Positions 11,732 through 46,398 of a stretch of 64,000 nucleotides of DNA are shown one piece after another. The number at the start of each line of letters is the position of its first letter. The stretch's first letter is position 1. The stretch lies in the NCBI GenBank assembly GCA_026391455.1, contig JAPLEH010000004.1, positions 1 through 64,000 of the forward strand, in the 5' to 3' direction. Both the position numbers and the translations under genes were made by a program. Source of the stretch: Bacteroidota bacterium. GTDB lineage: Bacteria; Bacteroidota; Bacteroidia; Chitinophagales; Chitinophagaceae. Under the pieces are notes generated by a model. That model was not told the origin of the DNA. It worked only from the letters and a program-made list of their open reading frames with translations, and made no database searches.

Positions 11732-11745
11732 GGAGTGCAAAATAC

Positions 11746-12381: not shown

Positions 12382-12470
12382 GAAAATGAAATATGGGATA
12401 TGTACAACTCGGACAAACGACTAAACCAAAATGCTTTCCGCGAAGCAGGATACCCGGTTTGTCTGAAACT

Positions 12471-14024: not shown

Positions 14025-14135
14025 TAGGCGCTGGTAGCTGTATTTAAAGTTACACAATGTTCCTGTGCCATAAATGTGAAAATTTTATAATGGCAGGTCT
14101 GCGAATATATGACCTAAAACTTTTTATACCGCTGA

Positions 14136-16076: not shown

Positions 16077-16171
16077 ACTTAATTCACCGTCAAATCTAAT
16101 CGGCCTGTGGGTGGTAAGCAAATATTTTACGGTAAAACTGTTTCTGCTCCCGCAATCTGCACCTGTGTTTT

Positions 16172-16179
16172 TATCTTTG
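16172..16179 (+). promoter_or_regulatory. Candidate -7 box just before the inositol-phosphatase gene
   Basis: TATCTTTG matches TAnnTTTG exactly but ends only 3 nt before the ATG at 16183. If it is used, the transcript would start at or just past the start codon. No -33 TTG is at the right spacing. Confidence 0.3.
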
Positions 16180-16182
16180 CAC

Positions 16183-16962: not shown

Positions 16963-16969
16963 TTATGTT

Positions 16970-17012
16970 AGATGTGTGATGTACGATGTACGGTGTGTGA
17001 TGTGGGGTTTTA
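16970..17012. repeat. Imperfect tandem repeat (gatgta/gatgtgtg units)
   Basis: A run of degenerate 6-8 nt units (gatgtgtgatgtacgatgta and onward) directly after the phosphatase gene. Low-complexity sequence, no coding role seen. Confidence 0.6.
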
Positions 17013-17028
17013 AACGAAATACTGCTAA

Positions 17029-17057
17029 GTTTTAGGTTTTAAATTTTCGGTTTTAGA
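17029..17057. repeat. Left inverted repeat flanking the four-helix-bundle ORF
   Basis: A 29-nt AT-rich arm beginning gttttaggttttaaattttc. It matches the reverse complement of 17506-17534 at 26 of 29 positions; the three differences are all A/G. It ends 19 nt before the ORF start. Confidence 0.75.
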
Positions 17058-17076
17058 TTGGTGCAAAATCTACCCG

Positions 17077-17487
17077 ATGACTGAAAATGAGTTAAAAACA
17101 AAAACAAAATCTATTGCAATAGCAGTAGGTAAGCTTTGTGAAAAATTGATTTCAAATAAAATCAATAATACATACAGCGGTCAGATACTAAGGAGTTCTG
17201 CATCCATAGGGGCAAACTACAGGGCAGCCTGCAGGGCTAAATCGATGAAAGATTTTATCAATAAGCTTCGGATAGTGGAAGAAGAGGCTGATGAGACCCT
17301 TTATTTTCTTGAGTTGCTGGCCGCGTTCAATGAAGAATATAAAGGAGAATTGAGAACAATCTATCGGCAAACAGAGTCCGTGTTGAAGATCATCGTTGCT
17401 TCCATACGGACAAGTATAAAAAAGTTGGAAAATAATGATCGAAAGATCAACCAAAAAGGTAATCAACGAAGTGATAGTAAAGAATAA
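17077..17487 (+). CDS. Four-helix-bundle protein (23S rRNA intervening-sequence type)
   Basis: A 136-aa helical protein of the S23/IVP family. Family-like segments are QILRSSASIGANYRAACRAK (about 29-48) and FINKLRIVEEEADETLYFLELL (about 53-74). Related proteins are encoded in intervening sequences of 23S rRNA genes and as free-standing ORFs; the fold is also that of the Avd accessory protein of diversity-generating retroelements. No reverse transcriptase or rRNA gene is nearby, so this is a free-standing copy. It sits between an inositol phosphatase and thiL, and 29-nt inverted repeats frame it almost exactly. Biochemical function is unknown; RNA binding is possible given the basic C-terminus. 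Confidence 0.85.
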   Translation: MTENELKTKTKSIAIAVGKLCEKLISNKINNTYSGQILRSSASIGANYRAACRAKSMKDFINKLRIVEEEADETLYFLELLAAFNEEYKGELRTIYRQTESVLKIIVASIRTSIKKLENNDRKINQKGNQRSDSKE

Positions 17488-17505
17488 TGGATTTGCCAGT
17501 AATAA

Positions 17506-17534
17506 CCTAAAATCGAAAATTTAAAATCTAAAAC
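17506..17534. repeat. Right inverted repeat flanking the four-helix-bundle ORF
   Basis: The 29-nt arm begins cctaaaatcgaaaatttaaa, is complementary to 17029-17057 (26 of 29), and ends 2 nt before the thiL ATG, so it supplies the whole thiL leader. Confidence 0.75.
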
Positions 17535-17536
17535 AA

Positions 17537-18568
17537 ATGAGTGGTTCCCGCACCGAAATCAGTTCCCTTGGCGAATTTGGTCTTATCGACCACCTGACAC
17601 AAAATATCGAGCTGCAGAATGCATCCTCGGTGCTGGGTGTGGGTGATGATGCAGCCGTGATAGATCATTTCGGCAAACAAACCGTTATCAGTACTGACCT
17701 GCTGATAGAGGGTGTGCATTTCGACCTGATGTATACGCCGCTTAAACATTTGGGTTATAAAAGTGTGGTGGTGAACCTGAGCGATATCTATGCCATGAAT
17801 GCTACTCCCACTCAGATTACACTAAGCATTGGCATCAGCAACCGGTTCAGCCTCGAGGCGCTGGATGAATTTTATGAAGGCGTGTATGCGGCTTGCGAAA
17901 AATATGGCGTTGATCTGGTGGGTGGCGATACTACCTCCTCACAAAAAGGGTTTATCATTTCCATAACGGCCATCGGCGAAGTGGCGCCAGATAAATTTGT
18001 AAAAAGAAGCACTGCACAAAAAGGAGACCTGATCTGCGTAAGCGGTTACCTGGGCAGCGCGTATGTGGGATTGCTATTTCTCGAAAGGGAGAAAAAGATC
18101 TTTATGGAAAGCCCGGGTGTGCAGCCCGACCTCGAAGGGGAATCGTATGTGATTGGCCGCCTGCTGAAGCCGGAAGCACGAAAAGATATCGTGGAGTTCC
18201 TGGCCCAGAGTGAGATCACCCCTACGGCCATGATGGATGTAAGCGATGGACTCAGTTCAGAAGTGTTGCATATCTGCAAACAAAGCGGACTCGGCTGTGT
18301 GTTGTATGAAGAAAAGATACCCGTTGCCGAACAGATGCGCCAGGCCGCCTATAAATTTGAGATCGACCCTACGGCCTGCGCACTCAGTGGAGGAGAGGAT
18401 TATGAACTGGTATTTACCATACCCCAGGATCAGCACGAAAAACTGGTGCTCAATGAAGAGATCAGCGTGATCGGCTATATGACCGAATCGGAGCAGGGAG
18501 CGAATATCATTACTAAGGGAGGAAGTAAATATCCCATTACGGCACAGGGCTGGAATCACCTGAAATAA
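17537..18568 (+). CDS. thiL: Thiamine-monophosphate kinase ThiL
   Basis: A 343-aa PurM-like ATP-dependent kinase that converts thiamine monophosphate to the diphosphate cofactor. Family motifs: VLGVGDDAAVID (about 33-44), the metal-site STDLLIEGVHFD (about 52-63), NLSDIYAMNATPTQ, VDLVGGDTTSS, MMDVSDGLSSEV and ALSGGEDYELVFT. No other thiamine gene is adjacent. The inverted-repeat element ends 2 nt before the start codon. Confidence 0.95.
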   Translation: MSGSRTEISSLGEFGLIDHLTQNIELQNASSVLGVGDDAAVIDHFGKQTVISTDLLIEGVHFDLMYTPLKHLGYKSVVVNLSDIYAMNATPTQITLSIGISNRFSLEALDEFYEGVYAACEKYGVDLVGGDTTSSQKGFIISITAIGEVAPDKFVKRSTAQKGDLICVSGYLGSAYVGLLFLEREKKIFMESPGVQPDLEGESYVIGRLLKPEARKDIVEFLAQSEITPTAMMDVSDGLSSEVLHICKQSGLGCVLYEEKIPVAEQMRQAAYKFEIDPTACALSGGEDYELVFTIPQDQHEKLVLNEEISVIGYMTESEQGANIITKGGSKYPITAQGWNHLK

Positions 18569-21413: not shown

Positions 21414-22304
21414 TTACTTCGAAAAATTATAACGGAGCAGCATTTCATGTGCATTACCACCCGCATCAAATACGCTGAGCGGTGTTTGGTAAATATCAAA
21501 TGCATATCCGATCGTGAATTTCTTTTTTACATGAATACCGGCAGAGAGCATAAAGCTTTGTTTAGCCCTTAAGGAAAGTCCCCAGAAGAACAACTCATTG
21601 TGCTCTACCCGTACGCCTCCCTGAAACTCTGTGGGCGCATTGGGCAGGTATATGGCCAGGAAATTAGGCGTAATGGTAGTTGTTCCATCCACATTCCATT
21701 TGTAGGAACCATGAAAGAAATAATGCCGGTATAACCGGGCCTGTTCACTGGTATTGAAATTGCCGGTATAAAAATTCAATTTGGATTGTACCAATTGAGA
21801 TACAGATGCACCCAATTGTAATCGTTTACCGGTATAGGAAATACCAAACCCTGCGTCGAATACAAACCTGTTCTCACTGGTGCCGATCGCCGGGTCTGCA
21901 CCCAATGTGGCAGAAAGTTTTGCCCGGTCCAGTGAATATTGCTGGCCTCTTGCTTCGATGCCCAATGAAAATTTGGCACCGTTGGCCATTGGAATATGCT
22001 TGGCAAAGGAAAGCTGCACTCCGGTACGGCTCGTGGGACCAGTTTTATCATTGTATATATACCCACCCAGGCCGATCTTCAGAGAGGGAAGCTCAAAGGA
22101 GCCAAAGGCCGTAGTAGTGCGGGGAGCACCGCTGATCCCGTTCCACTGTGCACGGTAGCTAACCCCGGCTATATTCTGTACGCCGGCCGTAGAAGGATTA
22201 TGAAACACACCCTGCAGATCATACATGGAGGATGTTTGCAATTGCTGACCGCATACAGTGCCTGCAGTAGCGGCAGCAATCAGAAGGACTATATATTTTC
22301 GCAT
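21414..22304 (-). CDS. T9SS PorP/SprF family membrane protein
   Basis: A 296-aa outer-membrane protein. Signal peptide: MRKYIVLLIAAATAGTVCGQ. The mature start, MYDLQGVFHNPSTAGVQNIAGVSYRAQW, is the typical PorP/SprF opening (NPA-type segment then Y..QW). The remainder is amphipathic beta strands, ending LLRYNFSK. PorP/SprF proteins attach specific type-B T9SS cargo to the cell surface and are usually encoded with that cargo, as here: the 1049-aa protein upstream on the same strand ends 20 bp before this gene. Confidence 0.92.
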   Translation of the reverse strand: MRKYIVLLIAAATAGTVCGQQLQTSSMYDLQGVFHNPSTAGVQNIAGVSYRAQWNGISGAPRTTTAFGSFELPSLKIGLGGYIYNDKTGPTSRTGVQLSFAKHIPMANGAKFSLGIEARGQQYSLDRAKLSATLGADPAIGTSENRFVFDAGFGISYTGKRLQLGASVSQLVQSKLNFYTGNFNTSEQARLYRHYFFHGSYKWNVDGTTTITPNFLAIYLPNAPTEFQGGVRVEHNELFFWGLSLRAKQSFMLSAGIHVKKKFTIGYAFDIYQTPLSVFDAGGNAHEMLLRYNFSK

Positions 22305-22324
22305 GTTAGTAGTTGTTTGAATGA

Positions 22325-25300
22325 TTAACGTAAAATGGTAACATCTCCTTTTAATATGATCGCTGTGCCATTCAGCAGAATGTATTTGATCACATAGTAA
22401 TAGGTACCGTCAGATACCGGTTTGCCATTGTAGGTGCCATCCCAGTTGTTCGTATAGTTGTCATTTTTATACACCAGGCCACCGTAGCGGTTGTATACCG
22501 ATGCATAAACCTGTTTAGTACAGGCCCCACCATTATTGGTCACGATCCAGCGGTCGTTCATTCCATCACCATTGGGTGTAAATGCATCCATTACTTTCAG
22601 GCAGTAAGGAATAACGGTCACCACTGCATTATCTGTGCTTATGCAACCGTTGGGAGAAACCACCGACATTACATAATTGGTCGTGTTGGCGGGTTTGGCA
22701 ATCGGAGTATAGGTATTAGCTCCGGTTAAGCTGGTATTGGGCGTCCACGCAATGGATATGGGATTGGGAACAGAGCTGCTGCCTTCGAGCATTACATCAT
22801 AACCTTCCACGATCACTTTGTCGGGACCCGCACTTACTACCGGACTTGGTTTTACATCTACCGTTACGGTTTTGGTAATGATACCGCAAGCAGCATCCCG
22901 GATAGTAATTGTTTTCACACCCGGCGTTAAGCCATTGAATGTGCCCGAGCTTTGGAAGGGACCGCCATTGATACTGTAGGTATAAGGTGCTATACCACCA
23001 GTGGCAGAAATCGCTACTACTCCCTGCGCTACGTTATCGCAGGTAGCGGTTAAATTTTCGGTAGATGAAACATTAAGATCGCTTAGTTTTCCATATTCAA
23101 GAATATTATTACTGAATGCGGTAACCGTAAATAAGCGTCGGTTAACAAAGGCTGTTCCTGCGGGTACTACACGGGGTGCAAAGCTCATGCTAACATGGTT
23201 GGAATTACTGGCCGGATAATCGAGGCGCCAGGAAGCACCACCATTATTAGTTACCAGGAAACCGCCTGCGCAGCCGATGTATCCGTTGTTGAGATCATGA
23301 AATACTACCGAGTTAAAGTTACCAACCGGAAATATGGATAAGATATTACCGGTAATATCTTGCCAGGTATTACCACCATCCGTTGTTCTGTATACCACTT
23401 TGCGGGGGAAACCATTACCTACCAGAAAAACAGTATTCACATCCAGTGCATACATATCATTGTAGGTGATCTGGGGTGTTACGCCCGGCGTTGGTAATGG
23501 CAGTTTATTCCAGGTTACACCACCATCGGTTGTTTTCCAGATCGTATCTCTTGAACCAGACACATAACCAACCTGTCTGCTTGGGAATTCAATATGTCTG
23601 AGATTTTGAAAGTTTGCACTGGTATGAAAACCATTAAACGTAGTCCAGGTAGTACCACCGTTTACTGATCTGAATACTTTAGGTGATCTGTTTGCGGCAA
23701 GCACACTGAAGCCGCTGTATCCCACCGCCCATACGCTGTCGTTGCCAACGGTGGCGATGTCCCATACCTGTTCATTGCCATTGGCAAATACAGGGTCAAG
23801 CGTGGGGGTGGTTGCATTGATATTGTCGGATTTATAAACGCTGCCTGTGCTGGTTCCAAAATAAGCTTTTGCCGGGTTATTGGGTACATAGGTGGCAGAG
23901 TTGATCTGTATGTTCAGCGCATTAAAATCCGTACGAATGATTTCGCTCCAGTTCTTTCCGCCGTCAGAGGTTCTGGCGATAAATCCACCGCCGGCAGCCA
24001 TGGCATTGTTACAATCTGCAACATCCATTTTATTATAAGAACCCACTGCATCCATTTTATAGGTGCTGCTCCATACACCACCGGGAATAGAATCAGAAAT
24101 AACACCGGCTTGTCCTGCTACTACGAATTTTCCCGAAGGGAGCATATCGATGGACTGTGCGCCGAATAAACTGTAGTTTCTGCCGGTTGGTAAAAAGCGT
24201 TCTTCCACCCAGGTGGTTCCATTATCTGTAGAGGTCATTAGCCTGTTTGTAGGCCCAAATGTGGGAGAAAGTACTGGCAACAGCAATTTACCACCCGGTG
24301 CTTTTACAATACCGGAAGGATTAAGAAAAGTAAAAATGGGATTAGTGGCCGGTATCGTGGGATACCCTGTGGGTGGGTTCGTGAGGTTTACTATCTGATA
24401 GCGGCCTCTTTCTTTTAATCCGGTGGCCACATTGAGTGTGCTGTCATTTACTCCGGTATAAACCCGAATGGCCGTATTATTGGTATTGGAAATGAGCAGA
24501 ATGGCCGAATCACTGATAATATGCATGGCCCTGTATGATTGAGTTGCTGCTGTCACAGATCGGTACAAACCAGTAGAACCACTGCAGGGTATCGGGCCGG
24601 TTAACGGACTTCCCGGATAACCAAGCTTTTCTTTAGTAGTGGAAAAATCAGAAAGCGATCCGTTTGAAAATTTCCAAACCATCGACGCATGCTGAGCACC
24701 CAACGAAGATGTTTGCCCACCTGTAGGAAGACAAGTAGTGGCGTTTACAGCAGGTATCTGAATAGTGGGGCCTCCACTGGAGTGTTGGGAACTTCCGCTT
24801 ACATACCCTGTATTTTCATTGATAAACATAATGCGGTTGATCTCCTTGCCCTTACCGGTAACGGTATGAAGCTGGGGAGGTACATTCGGATTATTGATAT
24901 AGCCAATCCTGGTAATGGGCCCGGAGGGAGACACCAGCGAATCCCAGGAAGCACCACCGTTCAACGTGAAATATACTTTGGGGATGGAGTCGAGTGTATT
25001 CCACTCACCACCGATATACCCTTTATTGTCATTCACAAACCAAACAGTATTGATATTTCTGGCATTATTGAACAGGGGCGTGCGGATAAAGGACCAGGTG
25101 GCACCACCATCCGTTGTTTTGGCCATACAACCTCCGGTACCTACTGCATATGCAATAGTAGGAGATACAAAATGAACATCCTGAAAACTGGTACCCACCT
25201 GCAATCCGGCCGCATTGATATAGGTAAATGCGCCATAATTCCAGAGAACCCCACCATCGGTAGAATAGGCAACTCCTGAATTGGACCCTACCATAATGCC

Positions 25301-25474
25301 ATTATTATCGTTGGCAAAATCCAGATCTGTAACCGTAAATCCAAATTGTTTTGGATTACTGAAACGCCAATTGGTGGTATTGTAAAAGCCCTGTCCTGAC
25401 GACAGAAGGCAGGAAAAGGAAAGCACCAGCATCAACAGATAATGACGTGGTTTCCCGAAGCAGCTCTTGTTCAT
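22325..25474 (-). CDS. Large T9SS type-B cargo protein with YCF48/BNR-like repeats
   Basis: A 1049-aa secreted protein. After the signal peptide (ends SCLLSSGQG) come repeated propeller-type motifs of the form TTDGGATWS, TLNGGASW, STDNGTTW, TSDGGKNWS, SVNGGTTW, TTDGGVTW, TTDGGNTW and TNNGGASW across about residues 45-790, which mark YCF48/sortilin-like beta-propeller blades. An SprB-like repeat region follows (about 810-880, ISATGGIAPYTYSINGG). The C-terminus, AFTPNGDGMNDRW through KGDVTILR, is the gliding-motility-associated domain used for type-B sorting. With the adjacent PorP/SprF protein it should be exported and tethered at the surface. The blades probably bind or display, with no enzymatic motif. 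Confidence 0.9.
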   Translation of the reverse strand: MNKSCFGKPRHYLLMLVLSFSCLLSSGQGFYNTTNWRFSNPKQFGFTVTDLDFANDNNGIMVGSNSGVAYSTDGGVLWNYGAFTYINAAGLQVGTSFQDVHFVSPTIAYAVGTGGCMAKTTDGGATWSFIRTPLFNNARNINTVWFVNDNKGYIGGEWNTLDSIPKVYFTLNGGASWDSLVSPSGPITRIGYINNPNVPPQLHTVTGKGKEINRIMFINENTGYVSGSSQHSSGGPTIQIPAVNATTCLPTGGQTSSLGAQHASMVWKFSNGSLSDFSTTKEKLGYPGSPLTGPIPCSGSTGLYRSVTAATQSYRAMHIISDSAILLISNTNNTAIRVYTGVNDSTLNVATGLKERGRYQIVNLTNPPTGYPTIPATNPIFTFLNPSGIVKAPGGKLLLPVLSPTFGPTNRLMTSTDNGTTWVEERFLPTGRNYSLFGAQSIDMLPSGKFVVAGQAGVISDSIPGGVWSSTYKMDAVGSYNKMDVADCNNAMAAGGGFIARTSDGGKNWSEIIRTDFNALNIQINSATYVPNNPAKAYFGTSTGSVYKSDNINATTPTLDPVFANGNEQVWDIATVGNDSVWAVGYSGFSVLAANRSPKVFRSVNGGTTWTTFNGFHTSANFQNLRHIEFPSRQVGYVSGSRDTIWKTTDGGVTWNKLPLPTPGVTPQITYNDMYALDVNTVFLVGNGFPRKVVYRTTDGGNTWQDITGNILSIFPVGNFNSVVFHDLNNGYIGCAGGFLVTNNGGASWRLDYPASNSNHVSMSFAPRVVPAGTAFVNRRLFTVTAFSNNILEYGKLSDLNVSSTENLTATCDNVAQGVVAISATGGIAPYTYSINGGPFQSSGTFNGLTPGVKTITIRDAACGIITKTVTVDVKPSPVVSAGPDKVIVEGYDVMLEGSSSVPNPISIAWTPNTSLTGANTYTPIAKPANTTNYVMSVVSPNGCISTDNAVVTVIPYCLKVMDAFTPNGDGMNDRWIVTNNGGACTKQVYASVYNRYGGLVYKNDNYTNNWDGTYNGKPVSDGTYYYVIKYILLNGTAIILKGDVTILR

Positions 25475-34903: not shown

Positions 34904-34930
34904 AAAAAAACTCCCCGCACATGCGGGGAG
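34904..34930 (-). terminator. Intrinsic terminator after the 287-aa T9SS-locus gene
   Basis: A 9-bp perfect stem (CTCCCCGCA with TGCGGGGAG, 2-nt apparent loop) lies 31 nt past the minus-strand stop at 34962, followed on that strand by seven T (34904-34910). It closes the four-gene surface cluster. Confidence 0.85.
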
Positions 34931-34961
34931 CTGCTCCGGGAAGGTTTATGGTCAATGGAAA

Positions 34962-35825
34962 TTACTTTTCTTCTTTTTTCCCCACTCTGAAAATGGCCGG
35001 TTCGCTTACGCCATCGCCGTTTACATTTCCATCACTGATGGGCTTGCCCTGCTGATCCAATGCCTGTATGGTCCAGATGAACTGTTTGCTGGTTTTAACG
35101 GAATCAACACCGGCAGAAAGATCCATCATACCCAATTGTGGTTGCCAGATAAATTGCGTTGTACCGGTGATCGCTTTATCCAGCAGTGGTTGATTGCTGC
35201 GGAGTGCCTGCACCGGTTGCTGATTCGCCAATACTTCAAAAACCAATATGCGGTAGGTTACGGGAAAAACGGGCCTTGGGGTTACGGGAGTCCAGCGGAA
35301 AGTGATATAGGTTTGTGCCAGTTTTGTATCCAGCACCATATCATTAGCCGGCATAACGGGTATGGATAGTTGAAAAGCTGCCAGGTTGAACGTGCGGCAT
35401 CGCTCCTCGCTTACCGGTAAATAATCAATAGGTGTCACCAATTGTACACAAAGCTGGTAATTATCGGAAGGCAGTTTACCGGTTTTATCAAGCGACACTT
35501 TATACTTACCGCTGAATACCATAATATCTGCCGGTATTACATCCGCAGCATAAAACAACTGGTTGCCTCCGGTAAGGTTGATCACACGTGCATTTGCAAG
35601 ATTGGTGGTGCCGACCACTGTACCATCCAGCGTTTTAAAACTGGCTTTGATCACCACGCGGCGGCCAAGCCCTGCAGGGCTGGAAACAAGGTAGGTCATA
35701 TCCTTCGTGCCCCAGTTGAAAATGGACCCCGGAGCTTGTGGCGATACCACAATATTGGTGTTGAACTGTGACCGTACATCCAGCATCGCCAGCAAAAAGA
35801 TCGTTGTATAAAGTATTTTTTTCAT
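34962..35825 (-). CDS. Secreted protein, small paralogue of the 779-aa repeat protein
   Basis: A 287-aa protein with a signal peptide (ends MLDVRSQ). The N-terminal part (NYQLCVQLV...PVSEERCRTFNL) and a following FN3-like segment (YITFRWTPVTPRPVFPVTYRILVFEV, then ALRSNQPLLDKAI) line up with the architecture of the 779-aa protein encoded 8 kb upstream on the same strand (GTYSICVQ, VSREVC, FRWTPLVPKPKEPVTYRLKV, AMRSNTPI). It therefore looks like a single-repeat version of it. It may belong to the TANFOR-like group of Bacteroidota surface proteins, which I cannot confirm. It is the last gene before a strong terminator. Confidence 0.75.
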   Translation of the reverse strand: MKKILYTTIFLLAMLDVRSQFNTNIVVSPQAPGSIFNWGTKDMTYLVSSPAGLGRRVVIKASFKTLDGTVVGTTNLANARVINLTGGNQLFYAADVIPADIMVFSGKYKVSLDKTGKLPSDNYQLCVQLVTPIDYLPVSEERCRTFNLAAFQLSIPVMPANDMVLDTKLAQTYITFRWTPVTPRPVFPVTYRILVFEVLANQQPVQALRSNQPLLDKAITGTTQFIWQPQLGMMDLSAGVDSVKTSKQFIWTIQALDQQGKPISDGNVNGDGVSEPAIFRVGKKEEK

Positions 35826-35870
35826 CGCAATAATTTATTTCACTGATAAATAAAACAATTGTTTTGTCAT

Positions 35871-37613
35871 TTATTCAAACCGGTAATTGAACCCGGTCCG
35901 GATTATACTTTCCAGGTAGCGTGCATTGTTGGGAGTAATCTCGTCGCCATATTTAAACTGGTTGCTGCTGATAAACGTGCTCCAGGTCAGTTTTTTGGTA
36001 ACTTTCCAGTCGCTATTGAAGGACGCGATCAGGTTATTATTGTTTTTATAGCTGTTCGTTTTTGAATAGTTGTACTGCAACTGCCCGCGCAGGTTCAGTT
36101 TCTTTTTTAAAGCTGGCATACTCAATCCGCTGCTCACCGTAATCAGGGTGAGCTTGAACAAGGGCAACGTATTGCGGAAATACATCACGGTAAAATCAGG
36201 AGAGAGGTCTTTGGTCAGAAAAGTGGGTACATAGGTCAGCAGGCCGGTATGCGTATTGTTGGAGGTGATATTACCGGTAAGTACATCCCGCTCATCGTAT
36301 TTGCTGTAGTTGTAATTGAGGCTCATCAGGTGGATCACTTTATCATTGCCCCATGTATAAGATGGGTTGAGTCCAAAATCATTACTTACATTTTTAATGC
36401 CATAGGGATTGATACCACCCGGTGTTTGAAATCCAAAGTTGTTGAAACTTACATTCAGGCTGAAGTGATCGTCAAACTGAGTGAACCAGTTCAGATTGGC
36501 AATAAATTGTTCCGCTTTCAATGTGTTGCTGGTCACATTGTTTACCCGTTTTCCCAGGCTGGCCACCACATTCATTTTATGCGTACCCGATTTGCTTTTC
36601 CATGCATTGAACCGCGTGTTTAAAGTATAATCGAAGCGGTCGGGAAGCATAAAGGGATAACCCGGCGTTTGAAAGCCGGCACCAATGTATTTTAACTTCA
36701 ACCCGATATCAAAGTTCTTTCCCTTTTTACCAATACCGGCATCTCCTGCATAATCTTTAATCGTGGATGTGTTTCCTTTGATAAAGGGCTTGAACGAAGA
36801 TTTGGAGGAATCCAATGGAAGGGTCATGTCTTTGGTGTAAAGCGATTGCGCCCCTTCCACTTTTACATACCAGCCTTTTTGAAAAAATGTTTTGGCTACC
36901 AGGCTCATGGTAAAACCTTCCTGTGGTTTTACAGAGGGTGGCGGTGGAGAGGCGGAGGCACTGTCATCTTTGGCTTTTACAAAGTTTACGGCAAACTCAT
37001 ATTTATCTTCTTTCATTTTCCCCAATGAAAACATCCAGTTGGTACGTTTATAAGCACCGGTAGTGGCAGGCGGTCCAGTAAAGAAATTAATGCCCTGCTG
37101 TGAAAGCCCGGTAAAGAATTTAATGAAATATCCTTTCGGACGAAGATCAACTCCTGCGCCAAATACACCAATATCACCGGTGCTCAGTTCAGAATAATTC
37201 AGGTATTGCGTGCCCAATAGCAATTCAGCCCATTTGTATTTGGGATTCAGTCCAAAACTGTTCATCGGATTGGTGATGAACTGACCCAGGTTTTGTTTTC
37301 CAATACCGGTATAGGGCCCCGCAAAATTGGTGGGCGTAGTGGCAAAATTAAAATTTACCGGCAGTGAAAAATTTTTGCCAAACTGCATGGTGGGTGTAAA
37401 ATTGAAGCGCAACTGATTCCAGGGTTTACGTGGAGTAAATCCTGTCCAGCCGGTTGGCTTCCGGCTCAGGCCATAATGTTCATAGCTTACGCCGATGGTA
37501 CCGCTGATCTTAAACGGTGGTTGCTTCTTCGTGCTGTCCTGTGCGGAAGCAGTGAACTGCAGCAGTACCAGCAATAATAGCAAATGGTGTTTCTTGTTCA
37601 TGCCTTGGTTCAT
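35871..37613 (-). CDS. Outer-membrane beta-barrel-like protein of the surface locus
   Basis: A 580-aa protein with a signal peptide (ends LLVLLQFTASAQ). The rest is dominated by alternating amphipathic strands with aromatic girdles and ends in a barrel-like NYRFE. The ATG at 37613 overlaps the stop of the 2097-aa gene by 4 bp (ATGA), implying translational coupling and equal or linked output. A start at MNKKHH (37601) is possible. Candidate role: export or surface anchoring of the giant protein, by analogy with SprF and SprB, but it does not look like PorP/SprF by motif. Confidence 0.75.
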   Translation of the reverse strand: MNQGMNKKHHLLLLLVLLQFTASAQDSTKKQPPFKISGTIGVSYEHYGLSRKPTGWTGFTPRKPWNQLRFNFTPTMQFGKNFSLPVNFNFATTPTNFAGPYTGIGKQNLGQFITNPMNSFGLNPKYKWAELLLGTQYLNYSELSTGDIGVFGAGVDLRPKGYFIKFFTGLSQQGINFFTGPPATTGAYKRTNWMFSLGKMKEDKYEFAVNFVKAKDDSASASPPPPSVKPQEGFTMSLVAKTFFQKGWYVKVEGAQSLYTKDMTLPLDSSKSSFKPFIKGNTSTIKDYAGDAGIGKKGKNFDIGLKLKYIGAGFQTPGYPFMLPDRFDYTLNTRFNAWKSKSGTHKMNVVASLGKRVNNVTSNTLKAEQFIANLNWFTQFDDHFSLNVSFNNFGFQTPGGINPYGIKNVSNDFGLNPSYTWGNDKVIHLMSLNYNYSKYDERDVLTGNITSNNTHTGLLTYVPTFLTKDLSPDFTVMYFRNTLPLFKLTLITVSSGLSMPALKKKLNLRGQLQYNYSKTNSYKNNNNLIASFNSDWKVTKKLTWSTFISSNQFKYGDEITPNNARYLESIIRTGFNYRFE

Positions 37614-40600
37614 TTAGTCGTTACAACATAAAATTTACATTCACATTTCTTGCCATCACATAAGCCAACAATCGTGTATTCAAAGGTGCCGGTCAATCCA
37701 AGTGTATAGGTATAATTAAAATTAGGGCCGGTTAATACTTGTGTGGTATTATCCGGTTTTTTAATGGTTACAGTAGGCCCGCTGCTTTTACAATCTTTTC
37801 CATTGCCGTCTTTGCAGGTAAAATTCGGCTGCAGGCTCACGGGAATATTGCCGGAGAATAAATCAATCGTTTCGCCGCAGGCCAGCGTTTTACTGCCGCC
37901 TTCCCATTTCAGCAAAGGTTTAATGGAGCAATTGCAGGCCTTATCATCATGGGGCCCTCCGCCGGGTTTGATGATCACCGTATAGCATACAATTACTTCA
38001 CATTCCTTACAATCCTTATCGCGGAAGGTGAACTTCACACAGATCTTTGCAGTCAGTTCGCAGCAATCAATAATAGATGCCGGTGGCAGCAGGAATGATA
38101 GGTTGATGGAGGATGGTAAAGCAAATGGAGATGTACTGTTCCATACCACTTCCCTGGGGTTTTGATAAATACCTGTGCCGGAAGGGTTGAAAGCGGGCAC
38201 CGTGCTGTTATACATGGTTATCTTCGGAGGTATTGCACCCGCATTGCCCGGCTGGTACATGCTGCCCCAGGCATAAGGATAGGTTTTGCAGCTCAGGCAT
38301 TCATTTTTAAAATTACTGCTCAGTACATAGTCCACCACTTCGGCCCTTATTTCGGTAAAGAGGTTTCCGGGAGGGCCGGATATATTGAACGTTGAATTGG
38401 CGATCGTGGCCGGTGGCGAAGAAAGTGTGGTTAAGGTGGTAACAGGATTGCTCACCGTAATATTATACGGGCAGCAGGTAGTGTCTTTGGGGCAATCCAC
38501 TTTAAAGAACACTTTGCAGCTGTCGCATTTCGTAGTGCCGCAATAGCCATATAATGTTAGTGTATACGTACCTGTTTGCGTAAGGCTGAAATTAAACGGC
38601 ATCGTATTACCAGTGGTTGTTCCGGCAGGGCCTGTAAATACATACTGCACATTACCGGGGCAATTAGTACCCACGCAGGTATAGCCGGCATTTACACTAT
38701 ACGATGTTTTACATTTTACTTCATAGGTCTTATCGCAGTTCAGTTTCACTGGGTTGATCACATTGTTATTACCAATCACTGCTTTTGCATCCGTTGGTGG
38801 TGGTGCGTTTTGCAATTGCGTAAGTGTAATCGGGTTCCACTTGCTGCCTTTACAGTCGCAGGGCTTGTCTTTACATTCTACTTTCAAAAACAGTTTACAG
38901 GTAAGACAAAGTTTACCGCCGCAATAACCATTGATCACCACCGTATAGTTGCCATCGGGCAGGCTGCTGATGGTGAGCGGGGCGGGTCCGCTTTGCACCA
39001 GCACATTCAGTGCATTGTATACAAATACAGAATCTGCACCGGCACAGTTGGTGGGGCAGGCTATCTGGCTGCTGATCACCAGGGGTTGTTTACATTTATC
39101 GCCGGTAATGAGAATGGTGGTCTCCTTCGCGCAATCAATCTTCACCGGTTTATTATTGCCTGTGGCATTAAAGTAATACGAAGGCGGGTCTTTCCAGTAG
39201 CTGCCCTTGCAGCAGTCGGTTTCACAATTAATGATCAGGTCAATGGTGCAGCTGTCGCAGATCTTGCCACCGCACCAGCCATAGAGCGTTAATACATATA
39301 CACTGCTGGTATTGGGCGTGGTAAACGTAAGCGGCGCATTGCCGGTGATTGGTGCGCCCACTCCCGGTTGCAATGAATAAGTAACTTTTCCATTACAGGC
39401 GGTGTCCTTACAGATATAGGATGCATTGATGGTGTAGGTGGTATTGCAATTAAGCGTTTGTGGTTTGTTACAGGTTAAGGTTATAGGGTTGCCAACATTA
39501 GCTTTTACATTAGTCTTCGCCGCGGGTTTTTGTCCTTCGGTCAATTGTATCTCACCCCAATGGCTTTCTTTACAATCGCAGCTGTCGCAGGGCAATACAA
39601 TTATGGAATACTTATCACTGGTATCCTTGCAGCCGGTGGAGGGATCAGTTACCACTATATTATAGGTACCATTTACGGCCGGGGAATAAGAAGGGTTGTT
39701 GCCATTCGTGCCCACGGCATTGCCATTAAAGTACCACTGAATATTATAGTTGGTGGCAAAAGCACCCACTAATGGCAGCGGCGCATAGATGGTAAAGTTG
39801 CCCAGTGAGTCGCGGCAGGTACACGGTATCTTATCACAGAAATGCGGGAACAAATCTGTCGGTGGCCGCCTGTTGATCTTTATATTCTTACTGTTGCTGC
39901 AACCGGTTACCGGGTTGGTATAAGTAGCTGTATATACTCCGGCCGTGGTAACGGTAATGCTGGTACCGGCCGATCCGGTGTTCCAGGTAATATTGCCGGT
40001 ATAGTTGGTAACTGTTAAAGTAATCGGTGTGCCTTCGCATAATGTGGGACTGGCACTGATAACAGGTGGTCCAGGCAGCGGATTCACCACTACCTGTAAT
40101 GAACAGGTGTCTTTGCAACCATATTCATTGGTCAGTATCAGGTTGTATACAGTGGTGGTGGTAACGGTGGCGTAGTAGGCCTGCCCGCTTCCCAGCAATG
40201 TACCATAGTTTCCATTGGCATACCAGTCAGACGTATAATTGTTCAGGTGATTGGGACTGCTGAGTGTAATATAATGCGGGCCCGGTCCGCAAAGTTTAGC
40301 GGAGGGTGAAACAGCAATGATCGCTTTGGGTTTGCTCACCGCTTTTACTTCTACTTTATTGCTGGTACAAGTGCATCCATTGGCACCCGTAACCATTACC
40401 TGGTAAAAACCGGGCACAGCGGTGGAATAAGTCATTGCATTATTCACACCCGGTGCGGGTGTAAAGTTGCCCGGTGATGATTCTACATACCATTGATAGG
40501 CGGTACCCGTTACCGTAGCAGTTAATACCGCCGGCACGCCGGGGCATATAAATGCTGGAAGAATAGTACAGGGCCCTATACCCGGTTTTACATTCAGCGT

Positions 40601-43600
40601 GGTATTGGCAGTGCAGGTATTGCCCAGATCATCCGTAATAGAAAGAGAAACGGGCATCGATGGGTTCGGTGTATTGTAAATATGTGATGTCGGTGTGCTG
40701 TACGCTGTAAAGCCATCCCCAAAGGCCCAGGTGGATGTAATGATATTGAAAGAGGGTGCGCCCACTATATTAAACGCAGTGGAGATACCCGTACACACCG
40801 GCGAAGGCGTGGCACTGATAGCCAGCGGTGCCCAGTTTACTGTTTGTGTGGCAATGGAGGAACAGGTGATGCCCAATGAAGGATCAGTATAATTGATGGT
40901 GAGTGTAATCGTATACGTATTGGGTACGAGAGAAGTATAGCAATGAGCCGGAGGAACATTCGAGGAGGTGGTAACTACCGGACTGCCATCCCCAAAATTC
41001 CATAAATATGTAGCAGTGGCCGATCCGCTGGTGGCCAATACTTTGGAAAGGTTGGTAATATTCAAACAACCATTGCAACCCAGTTTGTAAATAAACGCGG
41101 CCAGCACCGGTATCCTTACAGATGTTATATCACAATTACCGGTACAGTTGGTGGGGTTAGGCGTGGGCGGGCCTACGCAAAACGTTACACAATAATCACC
41201 CGGCTCGGTACTGGGTGGGTATGTATAAGTATACGGCACACCCGATGCACCGGGCGCCGTAGCACCGTTTCCAAAATTCCAGGTTATGGGTGCACCCGAT
41301 GGATTAGGCGTGGTACCGGTAAACGTAAACGTATTGCATCCCGTACGCACCACATTGGTGATCTTCGGCAGGTTTACATCCGGGCAGCAAACTTTATTCA
41401 CCGTAAAATTCAAATACCGCTGACAACCACCATAAGTGGCGATCACATAAAAATTACCATGCGTGGTGGTGGTGTACGTAGCAGCTGTCGCCAGCGGTAT
41501 AGGCGTACCGGAGGGATACACACCATTGTACCATTGATAGGTAATGGTGCCACTGGTAGGTTTGATCACCTGCACACCGATGGTTTGATTGGTGGCTGTA
41601 CCATTGCACACACCCAGTCCGCATTGAACAGGTACAATGATAAAAGGATTTTCAAGAATATACGTTTTAGTAAATGTGCAGCCACCCTTTGTGGCAGTAA
41701 CAGAATACGTAAACGGATACGAGGAAGGTTCGCTCGTTATAGTTATAGAAGGAGTGGTTTGTCCCGTACTCCACAGGTAAGTTGATCCTGGAGGTGCGCC
41801 CGTTACAGTTAGTGTAATACCACCAGGCTGGCACACATCTGTACCCGTTTTGGTAATGGTAAACGTAAACTTGGGATATACCAATATACCGGGTAACGGT
41901 GGTGGATTGCCACAGCCCGTAGTAGCACTGATGGAAGCAGACCAGGGACCTGCGCCCGATGTGCTGCCATGCCATAATACAGTAACGGGGTTGCTGCCGT
42001 GTGGCGATAATATTGTGCCCTGGCTCGAAGGACTAATGGTCCAGTTCACCGGCTCACCGGGAGGCACACCACTTAAGGTATACGTGCCGGTACCATCCAC
42101 ACATACATTCATTGTACCGGTAATGGTACCGATGGTGGCCTGTGCAATATTCTTTATTACCACGGCAGAGGAACAGGCGGGATTACCATTTGAAACAAGG
42201 TATACAGATATCGTTCCGTTCAGTGCCGACCAGTTAATAGATGCACCATCACCGTTTACATTGGTAAAATTGCCCGGTTGAAATAAACCTGCACCGCCCG
42301 TTACACTCCATTCATAATGAAAGCCCGAAGGTGCCGGTGTGCTCATACTGTAAGAATAGGTGGAACCGGTGCAGGCTGTTGCCGGTCCGTTGATCACTCC
42401 CGGTGGTGGCACACCAATCACTTTGATCTTTATCTGTTGTGTATTGGCAATACCACTGTTGCAGTACAAAGAACCTGTTTCATAAACATTCACTGTATAG
42501 TTACCGGCTATGGTAAAGATGGGAGAATAGGTATTACCCGGTCCGCCGCTGGGCGGTATTACACCGGTGTTGGGAGTTACCGTCCAGTTATATGAACCCG
42601 GCGCAGGATTGGCAAACAAATTAGCGGGTGTACCGATGCACAATGTTTTATCATTAAAGGCCTGCCATTTACCGCTGGGGTTAATGGTGAGTGAGCCCGT
42701 GCTGCTGCAGCAGATATGTTTGTTATTCAAATTCACAGTAAGCACATAGGTATTGTTGGCAGGCACATTGGCCCAGTTTATCCATACCGTATTATTATCA
42801 GGATAAGTGCTGAGTACATTTGTGTAGTTCGTGTTGGTAGTGGTGTTCATCAGCGTCCAGGTATAAAAAGTACCGGGCAGCGTGGGCATTGTATACGAAG
42901 TAGTAGATGTATTGCACGGATTGATACTTCCCACAATGATGGGATTGGTGGGAATAATGGGTACCGGTACCGACACAGTACATGCACCACAGGTAGCCTG
43001 CAACTGTCCCTGCGGATTACCATTGCCCCATTGCACCGTTACGCTATCACCAGCCTGGCTCTGTACCGTTCCGCCCGTTACCACCCAGGTGGGATTGGGA
43101 CAGCCGGTGGCATGATAAGTGGAAATAGTTCCTGCACATACCGTGCTTACACATTCAATGGTAAACGTACCGGGTTTGATGGTAACGGTTTTGGTAATGG
43201 TATCAGCACAGCAGGTTTTTACCAGCGGTGTGTCCGGTGCGCCATTTTGCCCCGGCAGGTTTACAATAGAAAAACTGTAGGCCACTAAGGTTACGGTATA
43301 GGTACCGGCACTGGTATATACATGCGTGGGGTTGGTGGCCGAACTGTAGTTATTACTACCGGAAGGGGGATCTCCAAAGTTCCAGGAATAAGCCACGCCA
43401 CCGCCACTGTAGGTAGTGGTATTGGTAAAGGAAATAGTACTGGGTGCGCAAACATTATTGGGGGTAAAGGTGAAATTGGCCACCGGTTTATCCCGTACGG
43501 CTACCGAAAGGCAACTGGTAAACACATTGCCGGAGGGATCAGTAACAGTAAGGGTAAGGGTATAGTTACCGGTTTGTGGCCAGGCAATATTGACAGTAGA

Positions 43601-43903
43601 GGAAGTGGCATTAGGATTAATGGTAACAGCAGCGGGGCCCGTGGCGGTCCAGCTATAGGTCCAGCCGGGCAGTACAATGGAAGATGTGTAGGTATACAGG
43701 TTGTTTACACAAACAGCAATGGGTTTACAACCTTTGCCACCACTGCTGCCACCAGCAGGGTTAGCTTCATCCGGCCGCAAACAATCCGGCGACGTGTATA
43801 AGATATCTACCTGGTTGCAGGACTGTGCCTGCAGTTTACCTGCCATAACCGACAACACTGTCAGCAGCAACACCGTTGTAAATAAATTAATGACTTTTTG
43901 CAT
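37610..43903 (-). CDS. Giant surface protein: PKD/Ig-like array with Cys-rich C-terminal modules
   Basis: A 2097-aa protein with a signal peptide (ends GKLQAQS). About residues 60-1440 are tandem PKD/Ig-like domains, each with the W-x-F-G-x signature or a variant (YSWNFGDPPSG, ITWNFGNGATA, YLWNFGDGSPV, STWAFGDGFTA) and paired cysteines. About residues 1440-2097 are Cys-rich: four copies of a module with a CDCKxSxW-type opening and a GYCGGKxCxxC-type close (nt 39570-39225, 39220-38875, 38868-38493 and 37945-37613), interrupted by one module shared with the 779-aa protein. No type-A or type-B T9SS tail is seen; it ends CECKFYVVTTK. Probably a disulphide-stabilised surface fibre or adhesin. Confidence 0.85.
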   Translation of the reverse strand: MQKVINLFTTVLLLTVLSVMAGKLQAQSCNQVDILYTSPDCLRPDEANPAGGSSGGKGCKPIAVCVNNLYTYTSSIVLPGWTYSWTATGPAAVTINPNATSSTVNIAWPQTGNYTLTLTVTDPSGNVFTSCLSVAVRDKPVANFTFTPNNVCAPSTISFTNTTTYSGGGVAYSWNFGDPPSGSNNYSSATNPTHVYTSAGTYTVTLVAYSFSIVNLPGQNGAPDTPLVKTCCADTITKTVTIKPGTFTIECVSTVCAGTISTYHATGCPNPTWVVTGGTVQSQAGDSVTVQWGNGNPQGQLQATCGACTVSVPVPIIPTNPIIVGSINPCNTSTTSYTMPTLPGTFYTWTLMNTTTNTNYTNVLSTYPDNNTVWINWANVPANNTYVLTVNLNNKHICCSSTGSLTINPSGKWQAFNDKTLCIGTPANLFANPAPGSYNWTVTPNTGVIPPSGGPGNTYSPIFTIAGNYTVNVYETGSLYCNSGIANTQQIKIKVIGVPPPGVINGPATACTGSTYSYSMSTPAPSGFHYEWSVTGGAGLFQPGNFTNVNGDGASINWSALNGTISVYLVSNGNPACSSAVVIKNIAQATIGTITGTMNVCVDGTGTYTLSGVPPGEPVNWTISPSSQGTILSPHGSNPVTVLWHGSTSGAGPWSASISATTGCGNPPPLPGILVYPKFTFTITKTGTDVCQPGGITLTVTGAPPGSTYLWSTGQTTPSITITSEPSSYPFTYSVTATKGGCTFTKTYILENPFIIVPVQCGLGVCNGTATNQTIGVQVIKPTSGTITYQWYNGVYPSGTPIPLATAATYTTTTHGNFYVIATYGGCQRYLNFTVNKVCCPDVNLPKITNVVRTGCNTFTFTGTTPNPSGAPITWNFGNGATAPGASGVPYTYTYPPSTEPGDYCVTFCVGPPTPNPTNCTGNCDITSVRIPVLAAFIYKLGCNGCLNITNLSKVLATSGSATATYLWNFGDGSPVVTTSSNVPPAHCYTSLVPNTYTITLTINYTDPSLGITCSSIATQTVNWAPLAISATPSPVCTGISTAFNIVGAPSFNIITSTWAFGDGFTAYSTPTSHIYNTPNPSMPVSLSITDDLGNTCTANTTLNVKPGIGPCTILPAFICPGVPAVLTATVTGTAYQWYVESSPGNFTPAPGVNNAMTYSTAVPGFYQVMVTGANGCTCTSNKVEVKAVSKPKAIIAVSPSAKLCGPGPHYITLSSPNHLNNYTSDWYANGNYGTLLGSGQAYYATVTTTTVYNLILTNEYGCKDTCSLQVVVNPLPGPPVISASPTLCEGTPITLTVTNYTGNITWNTGSAGTSITVTTAGVYTATYTNPVTGCSNSKNIKINRRPPTDLFPHFCDKIPCTCRDSLGNFTIYAPLPLVGAFATNYNIQWYFNGNAVGTNGNNPSYSPAVNGTYNIVVTDPSTGCKDTSDKYSIIVLPCDSCDCKESHWGEIQLTEGQKPAAKTNVKANVGNPITLTCNKPQTLNCNTTYTINASYICKDTACNGKVTYSLQPGVGAPITGNAPLTFTTPNTSSVYVLTLYGWCGGKICDSCTIDLIINCETDCCKGSYWKDPPSYYFNATGNNKPVKIDCAKETTILITGDKCKQPLVISSQIACPTNCAGADSVFVYNALNVLVQSGPAPLTISSLPDGNYTVVINGYCGGKLCLTCKLFLKVECKDKPCDCKGSKWNPITLTQLQNAPPPTDAKAVIGNNNVINPVKLNCDKTYEVKCKTSYSVNAGYTCVGTNCPGNVQYVFTGPAGTTTGNTMPFNFSLTQTGTYTLTLYGYCGTTKCDSCKVFFKVDCPKDTTCCPYNITVSNPVTTLTTLSSPPATIANSTFNISGPPGNLFTEIRAEVVDYVLSSNFKNECLSCKTYPYAWGSMYQPGNAGAIPPKITMYNSTVPAFNPSGTGIYQNPREVVWNSTSPFALPSSINLSFLLPPASIIDCCELTAKICVKFTFRDKDCKECEVIVCYTVIIKPGGGPHDDKACNCSIKPLLKWEGGSKTLACGETIDLFSGNIPVSLQPNFTCKDGNGKDCKSSGPTVTIKKPDNTTQVLTGPNFNYTYTLGLTGTFEYTIVGLCDGKKCECKFYVVTTK

Positions 43904-43940
43904 GTAGTTAGTTTTATATCATCTTCATGAATAATATTCT

Positions 43941-44056
43941 TTCCCCATTCAACCAATCCCCAATTCCTAATTAACCATTCAACCAATTAACCATTCCCCT
44001 AAGATCCCAATCAACCGGTTAACTAATCTCCAAATCAGTCAATTTCCAAATCATCA
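43941..44056. repeat. Degenerate tandem repeat between the two large surface genes
   Basis: The gap of 155 bp between the 2097-aa and 779-aa genes is filled with imperfect attaaccattcaaccaatta-type units. No hairpin terminator and no gene are seen. Confidence 0.6.
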
Positions 44057-44058
44057 CA

Positions 44059-46398
44059 TTACTTACACTCACACTTCTTATTATACGTATAGCACTTCAC
44101 CACGCTGCACACCGTACAATCCATAAACGTTACCACGTACCGTATACACCATTTCACTGTAGCTGCGCAGCATTTTACTGTTGGTGGCATACTGATCACG
44201 AAGTTGAGCGCCTGGTTGGTTACCATCTGTCCATTCGGTGTCCAGTTCACTGTATGCGGATAAGGAATGGTGGGCGATACAAGGCCGGATGATGCATTAA
44301 TAAAATTGCCATAGGTCCGGCTGTCTTTATTGCAGATCATACAATCATCGCTGTCGGGCTTGTATTCAAAGTATACCAGTTCGGCTTTAATGTTCTTTAC
44401 CGGTTTGGGGGATACGCTGATGGTATTATTTTGTATAATGCTGCCCGCGGTATCCAGCGTTATCTCACCCTTGGGGTTCACGTCTATCTTTACACTGTCG
44501 CATACATCGCATTTGCAGGGCACTACGGGTATACAGGTATCGCGACTGGCTTTCCAGAAACTGTTGGCCGCATCGGTTATCTCTGCACCAATACAGATAT
44601 TCGATAAGTTGGGCGCTGCATTAATAGTGCCGGTAATGGTCAGTTGATTGCCCGTGGCAATGGCTGTACCAATGGGCGGGGCAAAAGCGCCTAGTGTGGC
44701 ACCGGCCGGCACACTGCTGGTAATGGCCAGGTTGGTAAGGTTGGCCGTACCGGCATTTACATTGCTGATGGTATAGGAAAAACTATACACACCGGGGGTG
44801 GACGTACACAGTACTTTAATAGAATCCAGCTGTATAATATAGGTAGGTGCAATGCTGAAGGCCGTGGGGTTGCTGCTGCCAATTACCTTGGGTGCGGCAC
44901 CTGCCTGGCGCACGGTGGCTTCCACATTCCAGATAAAATCGCAGAGGTATGGCGGGCGGCACGGACCTGTTATCACACCATTCACCACAGCTTCGGTTAT
45001 ATTATCTACATCTTTGGTTACTATGGGCTGATTACTCCGCATGGCCTGTGAAGCATTTTGTCCCTGCATCAGTTGCCATACTTTCAGGCGATAGGTTACG
45101 GGCTCCTGTGGTTTGGGCACAATGGGTGTCCACCGGAAGGTGATCGGGTTCTTACCTTGTTCGGGTGTCAGTTCTTTTTTGTCTTCAGGATAAAGATTAT
45201 CCGGGCCTTTGCTTTTTGCAGTGGCTATGGTAAATGTTGTTGGGTCGCTCGATGGGCCCACGGTACCATCACGCGTTACCACCTGTACGTTCCAGATAAA
45301 ATCGCAGAGATATGGCGGCCTGCACGGACCGGTATAGATACCGCTGATGTTTGCTTCGGTTATATTATCTACATCTTTGGTAACGATCGGTTGATTACTG
45401 CGCATAGCCGTGGTACCATTTTGTCCCTGCATCAGTTGCCATACTTTCAGGCGGTAGGTAACGGGTGCCGATGGTTTGGGTACCAGCGGTGTCCAACGGA
45501 AGTTGATATTGCCTGCATTATCCGGTGGCAATTGTTTATTGTTATCGGGAAAAATGTTTATAGGTGGCGTTACTGTTGCTGCATCTTCCGCACTAAAGGT
45601 CCATGCTTCGCTGAAGCCATTGTTGCGGCCGAGGGGTTTGCCTTCGCGGTTGGTGGCCTGTACGTTCCAGATAAAATCGCAGAGATAGGGCGGGCGGCAG
45701 GGGCCGGTCACCAGGTTGGTAACGGTAAGCTGGGTTATCTCTTTTACTTCTTTATCGGCAATGGGTGTATTGCTGCGCATGGCGGCCGTACCGTTTTGGC
45801 CCTGCATCAATTGCCATACTTTCAGGCGATAGGTTACGGGTTCTTTGGGTTTGGGCACGAGGGGCGTCCAGCGAAATTGCAGCGGTTTCATCAGATCGCT
45901 CAGCGGAAATCTCTTACCATTGTCGGGGGTAATCAGTGTGGGAGGAGCATAATCCACTACGGTCTCTTCCACGCGGAAATCTTTACAGACCTCCCGGCTT
46001 ACGGCCACTTTGTCGATATTGAAGAATTGTACACAGATCGAATAGGTGCCGGCCTTCAGTTCGTGGCAGTTGCCGAGCAACCCTACCAGATCGGCAGTAG
46101 TGAATACACGCACATCAAAGGGGTCGATCCGTTTGGCAGTGGACATATTGTTGCCGCATACAATGGCACCATTACTGCGCACTTGCAGTACCATCATGGG
46201 TTCACGAACCTGCGCACCGGGGACTTTCTGTGCCGTGAGTACCAATGCGCCCGGGGTAGACAACCAATTGTCTACAGCTCCCGGAAGCACCGATTTCACG
46301 TTAAAGTTTACAATATTGATCTGGTTGATTTGACCGGCCTGTCCGTACAACAGGGAGCTGATCCATAATACCGGCAGCAGGAGTGCTAATTTCCGCAT
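44059..46398 (-). CDS. Secreted repeat protein with FN3-like triplets and a Cys-rich C-terminus
   Basis: A 779-aa protein. ATG 46398 gives a signal peptide (MRKLALLLPVLWISSLLYGQ); an earlier ATG at 46446 exists. An N-terminal domain (about 20-140) is followed by three FN3-like repeats of about 120 residues, each with FRWTPLVPKPxxPVTYRLKV, then QLMQGQN, AMRSN and GPCRPPYLCDFIWN. The tandem copies are also similar as DNA (near 45070, 45425 and 45805). A DUF11-like segment precedes a Cys-rich end (SDDCMICNKDSRTYGNF, MPPTVKCCAATVKWCIRY, CTVCSVVKCYTYNKKCECK) that resembles a module in the 2097-aa protein encoded next. First gene of the cluster. Confidence 0.82.
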   Translation of the reverse strand: MRKLALLLPVLWISSLLYGQAGQINQINIVNFNVKSVLPGAVDNWLSTPGALVLTAQKVPGAQVREPMMVLQVRSNGAIVCGNNMSTAKRIDPFDVRVFTTADLVGLLGNCHELKAGTYSICVQFFNIDKVAVSREVCKDFRVEETVVDYAPPTLITPDNGKRFPLSDLMKPLQFRWTPLVPKPKEPVTYRLKVWQLMQGQNGTAAMRSNTPIADKEVKEITQLTVTNLVTGPCRPPYLCDFIWNVQATNREGKPLGRNNGFSEAWTFSAEDAATVTPPINIFPDNNKQLPPDNAGNINFRWTPLVPKPSAPVTYRLKVWQLMQGQNGTTAMRSNQPIVTKDVDNITEANISGIYTGPCRPPYLCDFIWNVQVVTRDGTVGPSSDPTTFTIATAKSKGPDNLYPEDKKELTPEQGKNPITFRWTPIVPKPQEPVTYRLKVWQLMQGQNASQAMRSNQPIVTKDVDNITEAVVNGVITGPCRPPYLCDFIWNVEATVRQAGAAPKVIGSSNPTAFSIAPTYIIQLDSIKVLCTSTPGVYSFSYTISNVNAGTANLTNLAITSSVPAGATLGAFAPPIGTAIATGNQLTITGTINAAPNLSNICIGAEITDAANSFWKASRDTCIPVVPCKCDVCDSVKIDVNPKGEITLDTAGSIIQNNTISVSPKPVKNIKAELVYFEYKPDSDDCMICNKDSRTYGNFINASSGLVSPTIPYPHTVNWTPNGQMVTNQALNFVISMPPTVKCCAATVKWCIRYVVTFMDCTVCSVVKCYTYNKKCECK

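Follow-up and report, generated by a model that had tools for sequence, protein, structure and literature searches.

We describe a block of four consecutive minus-strand genes in a 64-kb window (the whole stretch of DNA analysed here) of contig JAPLEH010000004.1, from assembly GCA_026391455.1 of a Bacteroidota bacterium of the Chitinophagaceae. The genes encode, in order, a protein with a C-terminal Cys module (A779), a giant Cys-rich protein (B2097), a predicted outer-membrane beta-barrel and a small protein (D287). We think it fairly probable that this block is the Cys-rich form of a two-component outer-membrane module found across the phylum, in which a conserved N-terminal domain, here called the head, docks large passenger proteins on a dedicated barrel. 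The head comprises a signal peptide and approximately 270 aa, and a region of approximately 285 aa forms both D287 and the N-terminal part of A779. An earlier note on this DNA had taken the block for a surface structure with its own outer-membrane anchor; sequence comparison now suggests, beyond this, that the N-terminal module is related to the TANFOR domain, that the last gene belongs with the barrel, to which it is fused in eight genomes, and that passengers are exchangeable in a system distributed across the phylum.

Linkage between head and barrel was examined in 394 Bacteroidota genomes, with at most three barrel and six head candidates scored per genome, so that the counts given are among the matches listed. 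The barrel profile, weak matches included, reached at least 156 of these genomes at E<=1e-5, and a profile of 47 heads matched at least 127 of the same 394. The linkage input consisted of 96 strong barrels (E<=1.8e-48), 37 weaker barrels and 150 heads, after additional pieces of a gene already counted and the lowest-scoring barrel rows of the listing had been left out. A listed head lies within 15 kb of 82 of the 96 strong barrels, which come from 74 genomes, as against a chance expectation of 1.85, and on the same strand in all 82 cases; the gap is below 300 bp in 54 of these 82 pairs. All 74 strong-barrel genomes have a head. The weaker barrels behave in the same way, with a listed head within 15 kb for 27 of the 37, always on the same strand. 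In the neighbourhoods of the barrel loci the adjoining gene nearly always begins with a head, and a recognised barrel open reading frame (ORF) without a head was seen at L078, L082 and L102 only.

In eight of the 394 genomes, among the matches listed, head and barrel form one ORF of 863-1016 aa (L111-L116, L206 and L207), which we take as the strongest sign that the two may work in physical contact. The predicted structure of one such fusion, from L115, has both domains folded, with a predicted local distance difference test score (pLDDT) of 81.2 and a predicted template modelling score of 0.79, from a shallow alignment of 25 rows.

A scan of named genomes yielded 54 related loci in Chitinophagaceae and Ferruginibacter metagenome-assembled genomes (<=85% identity) and in further hosts including Flavobacterium erciyesense, Flavobacterium muglaense, Limnovirga, Lacihabitans, Mucilaginibacter, Nonlabens and others. 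The complete order A-B-barrel-D is present in 24 of the 54, the remainder being truncated at contig ends, broken by an intervening short ORF, or not of this type. The gene next after the barrel, defined as the next same-strand ORF of at least 100 aa, carries a head in 52 of the 54, the head of L174 being cut by a contig end. These loci are not independent: L145, L153 and L157 are the same loci as L026, L027 and L028, and L147/L149, L134/L155 and L164/L165 are near-copies. In the window's own family the barrel is patchy, occurring in 19 of 117 genomes. The gene order, whose conservation in relatives the earlier note proposed to test, is found there, and the homologues do not lie scattered singly. 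Its wider proposal, that the block is a surface structure carrying a barrel of its own, seems plausible to us: the genes do appear to form one unit and the barrel is the unit's own and not of the PorP/SprF type, the surface location and a role as anchor and not as conduit being putative.

Passengers appear to be exchangeable. At L143, L145, L157 and L171 a giant with a conserved body and a 700-aa FN3 protein replace A and B, and D still follows the barrel (the L157 giant is cut by a contig end and its head was not seen). In the barrel tree, 43 of 46 rows with a free D, together with one unclear row, form one clade (support 100, not a bootstrap value), and the four giant-type loci fall at three places within it, and well-supported branches require at least three changes. 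The head tree groups 28 of 33 free heads into a single clade (support 99, again not a bootstrap value), the remaining five stemming from distant branches. A second clade (support 100) unites 28 passenger heads, of Cys-type and giant-type passengers together, so that bodies change under one head. Both trees came from quick searches without bootstrap and with long-branch warnings, and the head tree was built on selected loci. Together they suggest that the barrel, D and the passenger head stay while the passenger body is replaced. The bodies include a conserved region of approximately 1100 aa (18 proteins) as well as Cys-rich proteins; an M43 peptidase occupies the place of B at L027; and a B relative in Flavobacterium erciyesense (L150, 2785-8877) carries a C-terminal beta-lactamase-family domain (PF00144, E 8.5e-49), which may represent a different payload on the same scaffold. 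A search of 20 passenger C-termini of relatives for toxin domains gave no Pfam match at E<=0.01. By eye, toxin-like C-terminal stretches followed by a small gene were seen at L041 and L042, and are not counted as evidence. In the window's own genome the giant of a close relative was matched by its head only, and a second search, made without a positive control, left the 712-aa FN3 protein unmatched.

The TANFOR domain has been described as an N-terminal domain of approximately 147 residues (Jana, Salomon and Bosis 2020, PMC7073777), in large, often FN3-containing Bacteroidetes proteins that have a Sec signal and many of which carry C-terminal toxins; the neighbourhoods reported there hold FN3, PKD and SprB proteins and proteins with a tail for the type IX secretion system (T9SS), in T9SS-positive genomes. 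The model of this domain, TIGR02542, matches 22 of the 47 heads at E<=1 (best 2.5e-13), with every match below its curated cut-off of 67 bits and with neither of the window's two heads (D287, A779) matched at E<=1. The window's own genome as a whole has no TIGR02542 match at E<=0.001. Across genomes, 15 matches were found in 12 of the 74 strong-barrel genomes, all 15 of them within heads, and 71 genomes with no barrel listed gave no match; these 71 were selected from the window's own class as sprA-positive genomes with no barrel match in the phylum scan, and leaving out G154, G211 and G288, which have a head match and no barrel match, favours a link between TANFOR and the barrel. As a whole, the head family is distantly homologous to TANFOR. 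The window's locus resembles TANFOR toxins in its related head, FN3-like domains and Sec signal, and departs from them in that A and B carry Cys modules, one of which ends A779, and in the presence of a free head and a dedicated barrel. No toxin family was found by Pfam in A779, B2097 or D287 and no immunity gene was seen. We do not file the locus as a TANFOR toxin because a direct TIGR02542 match and a toxin were both looked for and neither was found; it may well dock like one.

Several observations weigh against docking by a head on a dedicated barrel, in addition to the sub-threshold TANFOR matches above. No listed head lies within 15 kb of 14 of the 96 strong and 10 of the 37 weaker barrels, and 30 of the 150 listed heads have no listed barrel within that distance. 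The docking itself is a suggestion drawn from linkage and fusion. In the L115 fusion, head and barrel are joined by a disordered linker of 48 residues (275-322; pLDDT <50), which means that a place inside the barrel lumen is not required of the head. The place of the head in the fused polypeptides would be compatible with a periplasmic location. SprA_N (sprA) was counted, by eye from a table, in 74 of 74 strong-barrel genomes as against 305 of 394 overall, so that T9SS may be involved, and sprA is present in the window's own genome as well.

The position of the head leads to one alternative, namely that A and B, instead of being surface proteins, hang from the barrel as scaffolds in the periplasm. 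In known barrel chains the part ahead of the barrel is usually periplasmic, and in the natural fusions the head precedes the barrel within one chain. Set against this, the PKD, FN3-like and Cys-rich repeats, the M43 peptidase and the beta-lactamase-family domain all look extracellular, none of them being proof; passengers of approximately 1000 to more than 4000 aa are unusual for the periplasm; and the related TANFOR proteins are described as carrying toxins (PMC7073777). We regard periplasmic scaffolds as quite improbable.

The sprA count bears on another alternative, that T9SS exports the passengers via an unrecognised signal, for instance the C-terminal Cys module, and that the barrel only anchors them in the manner of PorP/SprF. 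PorP/SprF proteins are described as outer-membrane barrels whose genes are paired with those of surface proteins, which they anchor or shuttle (PMC9143113, PMC12618676), and the TANFOR paper also proposed T9SS as the export route (PMC7073777). In 32 of 35 head-bearing (A) and 21 of 41 headless (B) proteins, no more than 40 aa separate the end of the Cys module from the C-terminus. At L041, L042, L043 and L084, adhesin-like SprB or FG-GAP repeat proteins with a Por_Secre_tail, a T9SS type A tail (below cut-off at L043), stand directly upstream of the barrel. Yet a Pfam scan found neither Por_Secre_tail nor CHU_C in A779, B2097 or D287, nor a T9SS tail in five B relatives, and approximately half of the headless proteins run on past the module, B2097 itself by 116 residues. 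The correlation with T9SS goes along with clades: of the 20 T9SS-less genomes listed, 14 belong to one family (f18), with 69 further such genomes not listed. What is seen to be conserved in giant-type passengers is the head, at the N-terminus. The locus shares with PorP/SprF and its type B C-terminal domain (CTD) substrates the pairing of a barrel gene with the gene of a surface protein, here a putative one. It differs in a barrel that is unrelated in sequence and approximately twice as long, and in that the common part is the passenger N-terminus and no CTD was found. Export by T9SS with a barrel that serves only as anchor seems unlikely to us.

That the block has no PorP/SprF and neither large protein a recognisable T9SS tail, as the earlier note had it, agrees with the Pfam scan, which gave no PF11751 match in the four genes and was positive at 21-25 kb (CHU_C E 1.8e-20 in 22325-25474, PorP_SprF E 1.9e-51). 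There, at 21414-25474, an ordinary PorP/SprF gene adjoins one for a BNR/sortilin-like repeat protein with a CHU_C tail, as is usual for T9SS type B pairs. Kinship of the block's barrel with the PorP/SprF protein of this pair was considered and rejected, hhalign giving a probability of 0.4%.

AlphaFold2, run on the barrel with 20 relatives (a shallow alignment of 21 rows), predicts a confident barrel (pLDDT 82.7) of approximately 24-26 strands as counted from the DSSP line. No Pfam or NCBIfam family scored over its cut-off. The closest fold among the matches listed is that of MtrB (6r2q; Z 20.1, 465 residues aligned, 4.8 A), and the pore of the FimD usher also matches (Z 16.4, 359 aligned, 5.0 A), at 10-11% identity to these folds, both of which are wide barrels; the barrel part (322-859) of a fused relative matches MtrB likewise (Z 17.0, 452 aligned, 5.0 A). 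MtrB as best match for both barrels might suggest an uptake or electron-conduit porin with the other three genes encoding accessory binding proteins. A shared predicted fold with MtrB shows no function, however, and the absence of CXXCH haem motifs from all four proteins disfavours a haem conduit, the block having no multihaem cytochrome partners of the kind found in MtrCAB. Together with passengers that exchange while the barrel stays in the trees, this makes an MtrB-like role very improbable. Unlike the setting of the FimD usher, the four genes show no chaperone or pilin family by Pfam.

A further comparison is with two-partner secretion (TpsA/TpsB), in which a large exoprotein has a conserved N-terminal domain of approximately 250-300 aa and is encoded beside its barrel, of 16 strands. 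The resemblance lies in an N-terminal partner domain conserved beside the barrel gene (52 of 54 loci), the head itself not being a two-partner secretion domain. The differences are the number of predicted strands and the lack of any Omp85 or POTRA match by Pfam at E<=1 in the four genes.

The Cys module, of approximately 150 aa, was found in 76 proteins (the L027/L153 proteins being counted twice), as a single copy except in two proteins of L114 with two copies each, and the distant fused branch has it too (L111, L114). It was matched by no model of Pfam or NCBIfam. That the first two genes share such a module had been noticed earlier and is supported by BLAST, which aligns A779 647-771 with B2097 1826-1975 at E 2e-7. 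As a domain present in both A and B, the module could serve in pairing or in sorting.

For the favoured reading, docking of passengers on a dedicated barrel, we would envisage the following steps. All four proteins would enter the periplasm by Sec; D287 would act as the barrel's own subunit; A779 would dock on the barrel via its head; B2097 would be a third subunit, probably joined to A779 through the common Cys module; and the barrel would hold the assembly at the outer membrane and possibly lead the passenger across. What the data show directly are the linkage, the homologies, the fusions and the exchange of passengers; docking, display at the surface, the role of anchor or conduit, and contact between A and B are inferred. 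A bolder version, in which the barrel is the dedicated translocator of TANFOR-type proteins, its export is two-partner-like and of a kind not yet described, the head opens or threads the barrel, and the cargo comprises giant adhesins, Cys-rich assemblies or toxins, is a possibility we entertain only tentatively.

The exit route of the TANFOR class, some members of which are antibacterial toxins, was left open in 2020, T9SS being proposed (PMC7073777), and the barrel represents a concrete candidate partner. The words "barrel" and "porin" are absent from the main text of that paper, and another source counts TANFOR as a trafficking domain, with no use of the word barrel in the passages covered (PMC11796102). 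In the open-access literature, with preprints and most subscription papers outside its scope, our search found no barrel partner for TANFOR. A barrel without a domain model would have been missed by the domain-based neighbourhood survey of 2020. The barrel could account for the attachment of large Bacteroidota proteins that lack a T9SS tail, and the finding draws attention to a family of barrels and to a Cys module without a matching Pfam or NCBIfam model.

The features of the block are collected in the table. The observations of the earlier note on its layout were reproduced: the four ORFs are present, B2097 and the barrel gene overlap by the 4 bp ATGA, and a hairpin of 10 pairs (7 G-C) followed by a T-run stands after D287, with recX beyond it. 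The terminator scan gave 15 sites overall against 14.6 in shuffles; because the total is about at shuffle level, the weight of this terminator rests on its own quality and place. The gap between A and B is 155 bp, and the barrel gene has an alternative start, an ATG at 37601. The common N-terminal architecture claimed for A779 and D287 was likewise recovered by BLAST (27% over 285 aa, E 5e-22), the term FN3-like being by resemblance, as Pfam fn3 had no match in the window's proteins. Signal peptides were seen in all four proteins, by inspection only. The Cys counts are 26 in A779, 102 in B2097, 0 in the barrel and 2 in D287. Only PKD models scored over Pfam cut-offs in B2097, and nothing did so by NCBIfam in the four proteins. 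TetR_C_21, the sole Pfam match over cut-off in A779, was taken as spurious.

Table. Features of the four-gene block (window positions; HMM, hidden Markov model)
Feature	Position	Strand	Description or basis
Gene A (A779), 779 aa	44059-46398	minus	passenger with signal peptide and TANFOR-like head, then FN3-like repeats and a C-terminal Cys module
Head of A779, residues 1-283	45550-46398	minus	head HMM match and head alignment row
Two further FN3-like copies in A779, residues ~272-398 and ~380-523	44830-45585	minus	head HMM, BLAST against D287
C-terminal Cys module of A779, residues ~641-778	44065-44478	minus	module HMM
Gene B (B2097), 2097 aa, 102 Cys	37610-43903	minus	PKD/immunoglobulin-like repeats, Cys-rich tail
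Cys module copy in B2097, residues ~1820-1981	37961-38446	minus	module HMM, BLAST E 2e-7
Gene C, 580 aa, predicted outer-membrane beta-barrel	35871-37613	minus	AlphaFold2, fold matches, family profile
Gene D (D287), 287 aa, free head	34962-35825	minus	signal peptide, TANFOR-like domain, FN3-like domain
Terminator-like hairpin and T-run, after gene D	34909-34932	minus	hairpin scan (read 34932-34909)

Related sets were also noted elsewhere. The window's own genome holds a second, distant set in a row (L100, G000:C14:5000-24900, at 6685-18189), comprising a 797-aa barrel-like protein (profile E 4e-11), a 370-aa head protein and a 2645-aa protein with PA14. A distant branch (L103, L104, L105) has barrels of approximately 800 aa, with the head on a protein of its own encoded upstream, one gene away from the barrel, and at L103 and L105 a gene of approximately 740 aa follows the barrel. 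The barrel proteins of L084 (816 aa) and L082 (766 aa) extend approximately 250 and 160 aa beyond the barrel match, in parts that look helical by eye. The longest frames with a head among the matches listed, of approximately 6400 codons, are those with heads at G128:C7:116412-117242, G242:C91:36412-37245 and G147:C39:354355-355194.

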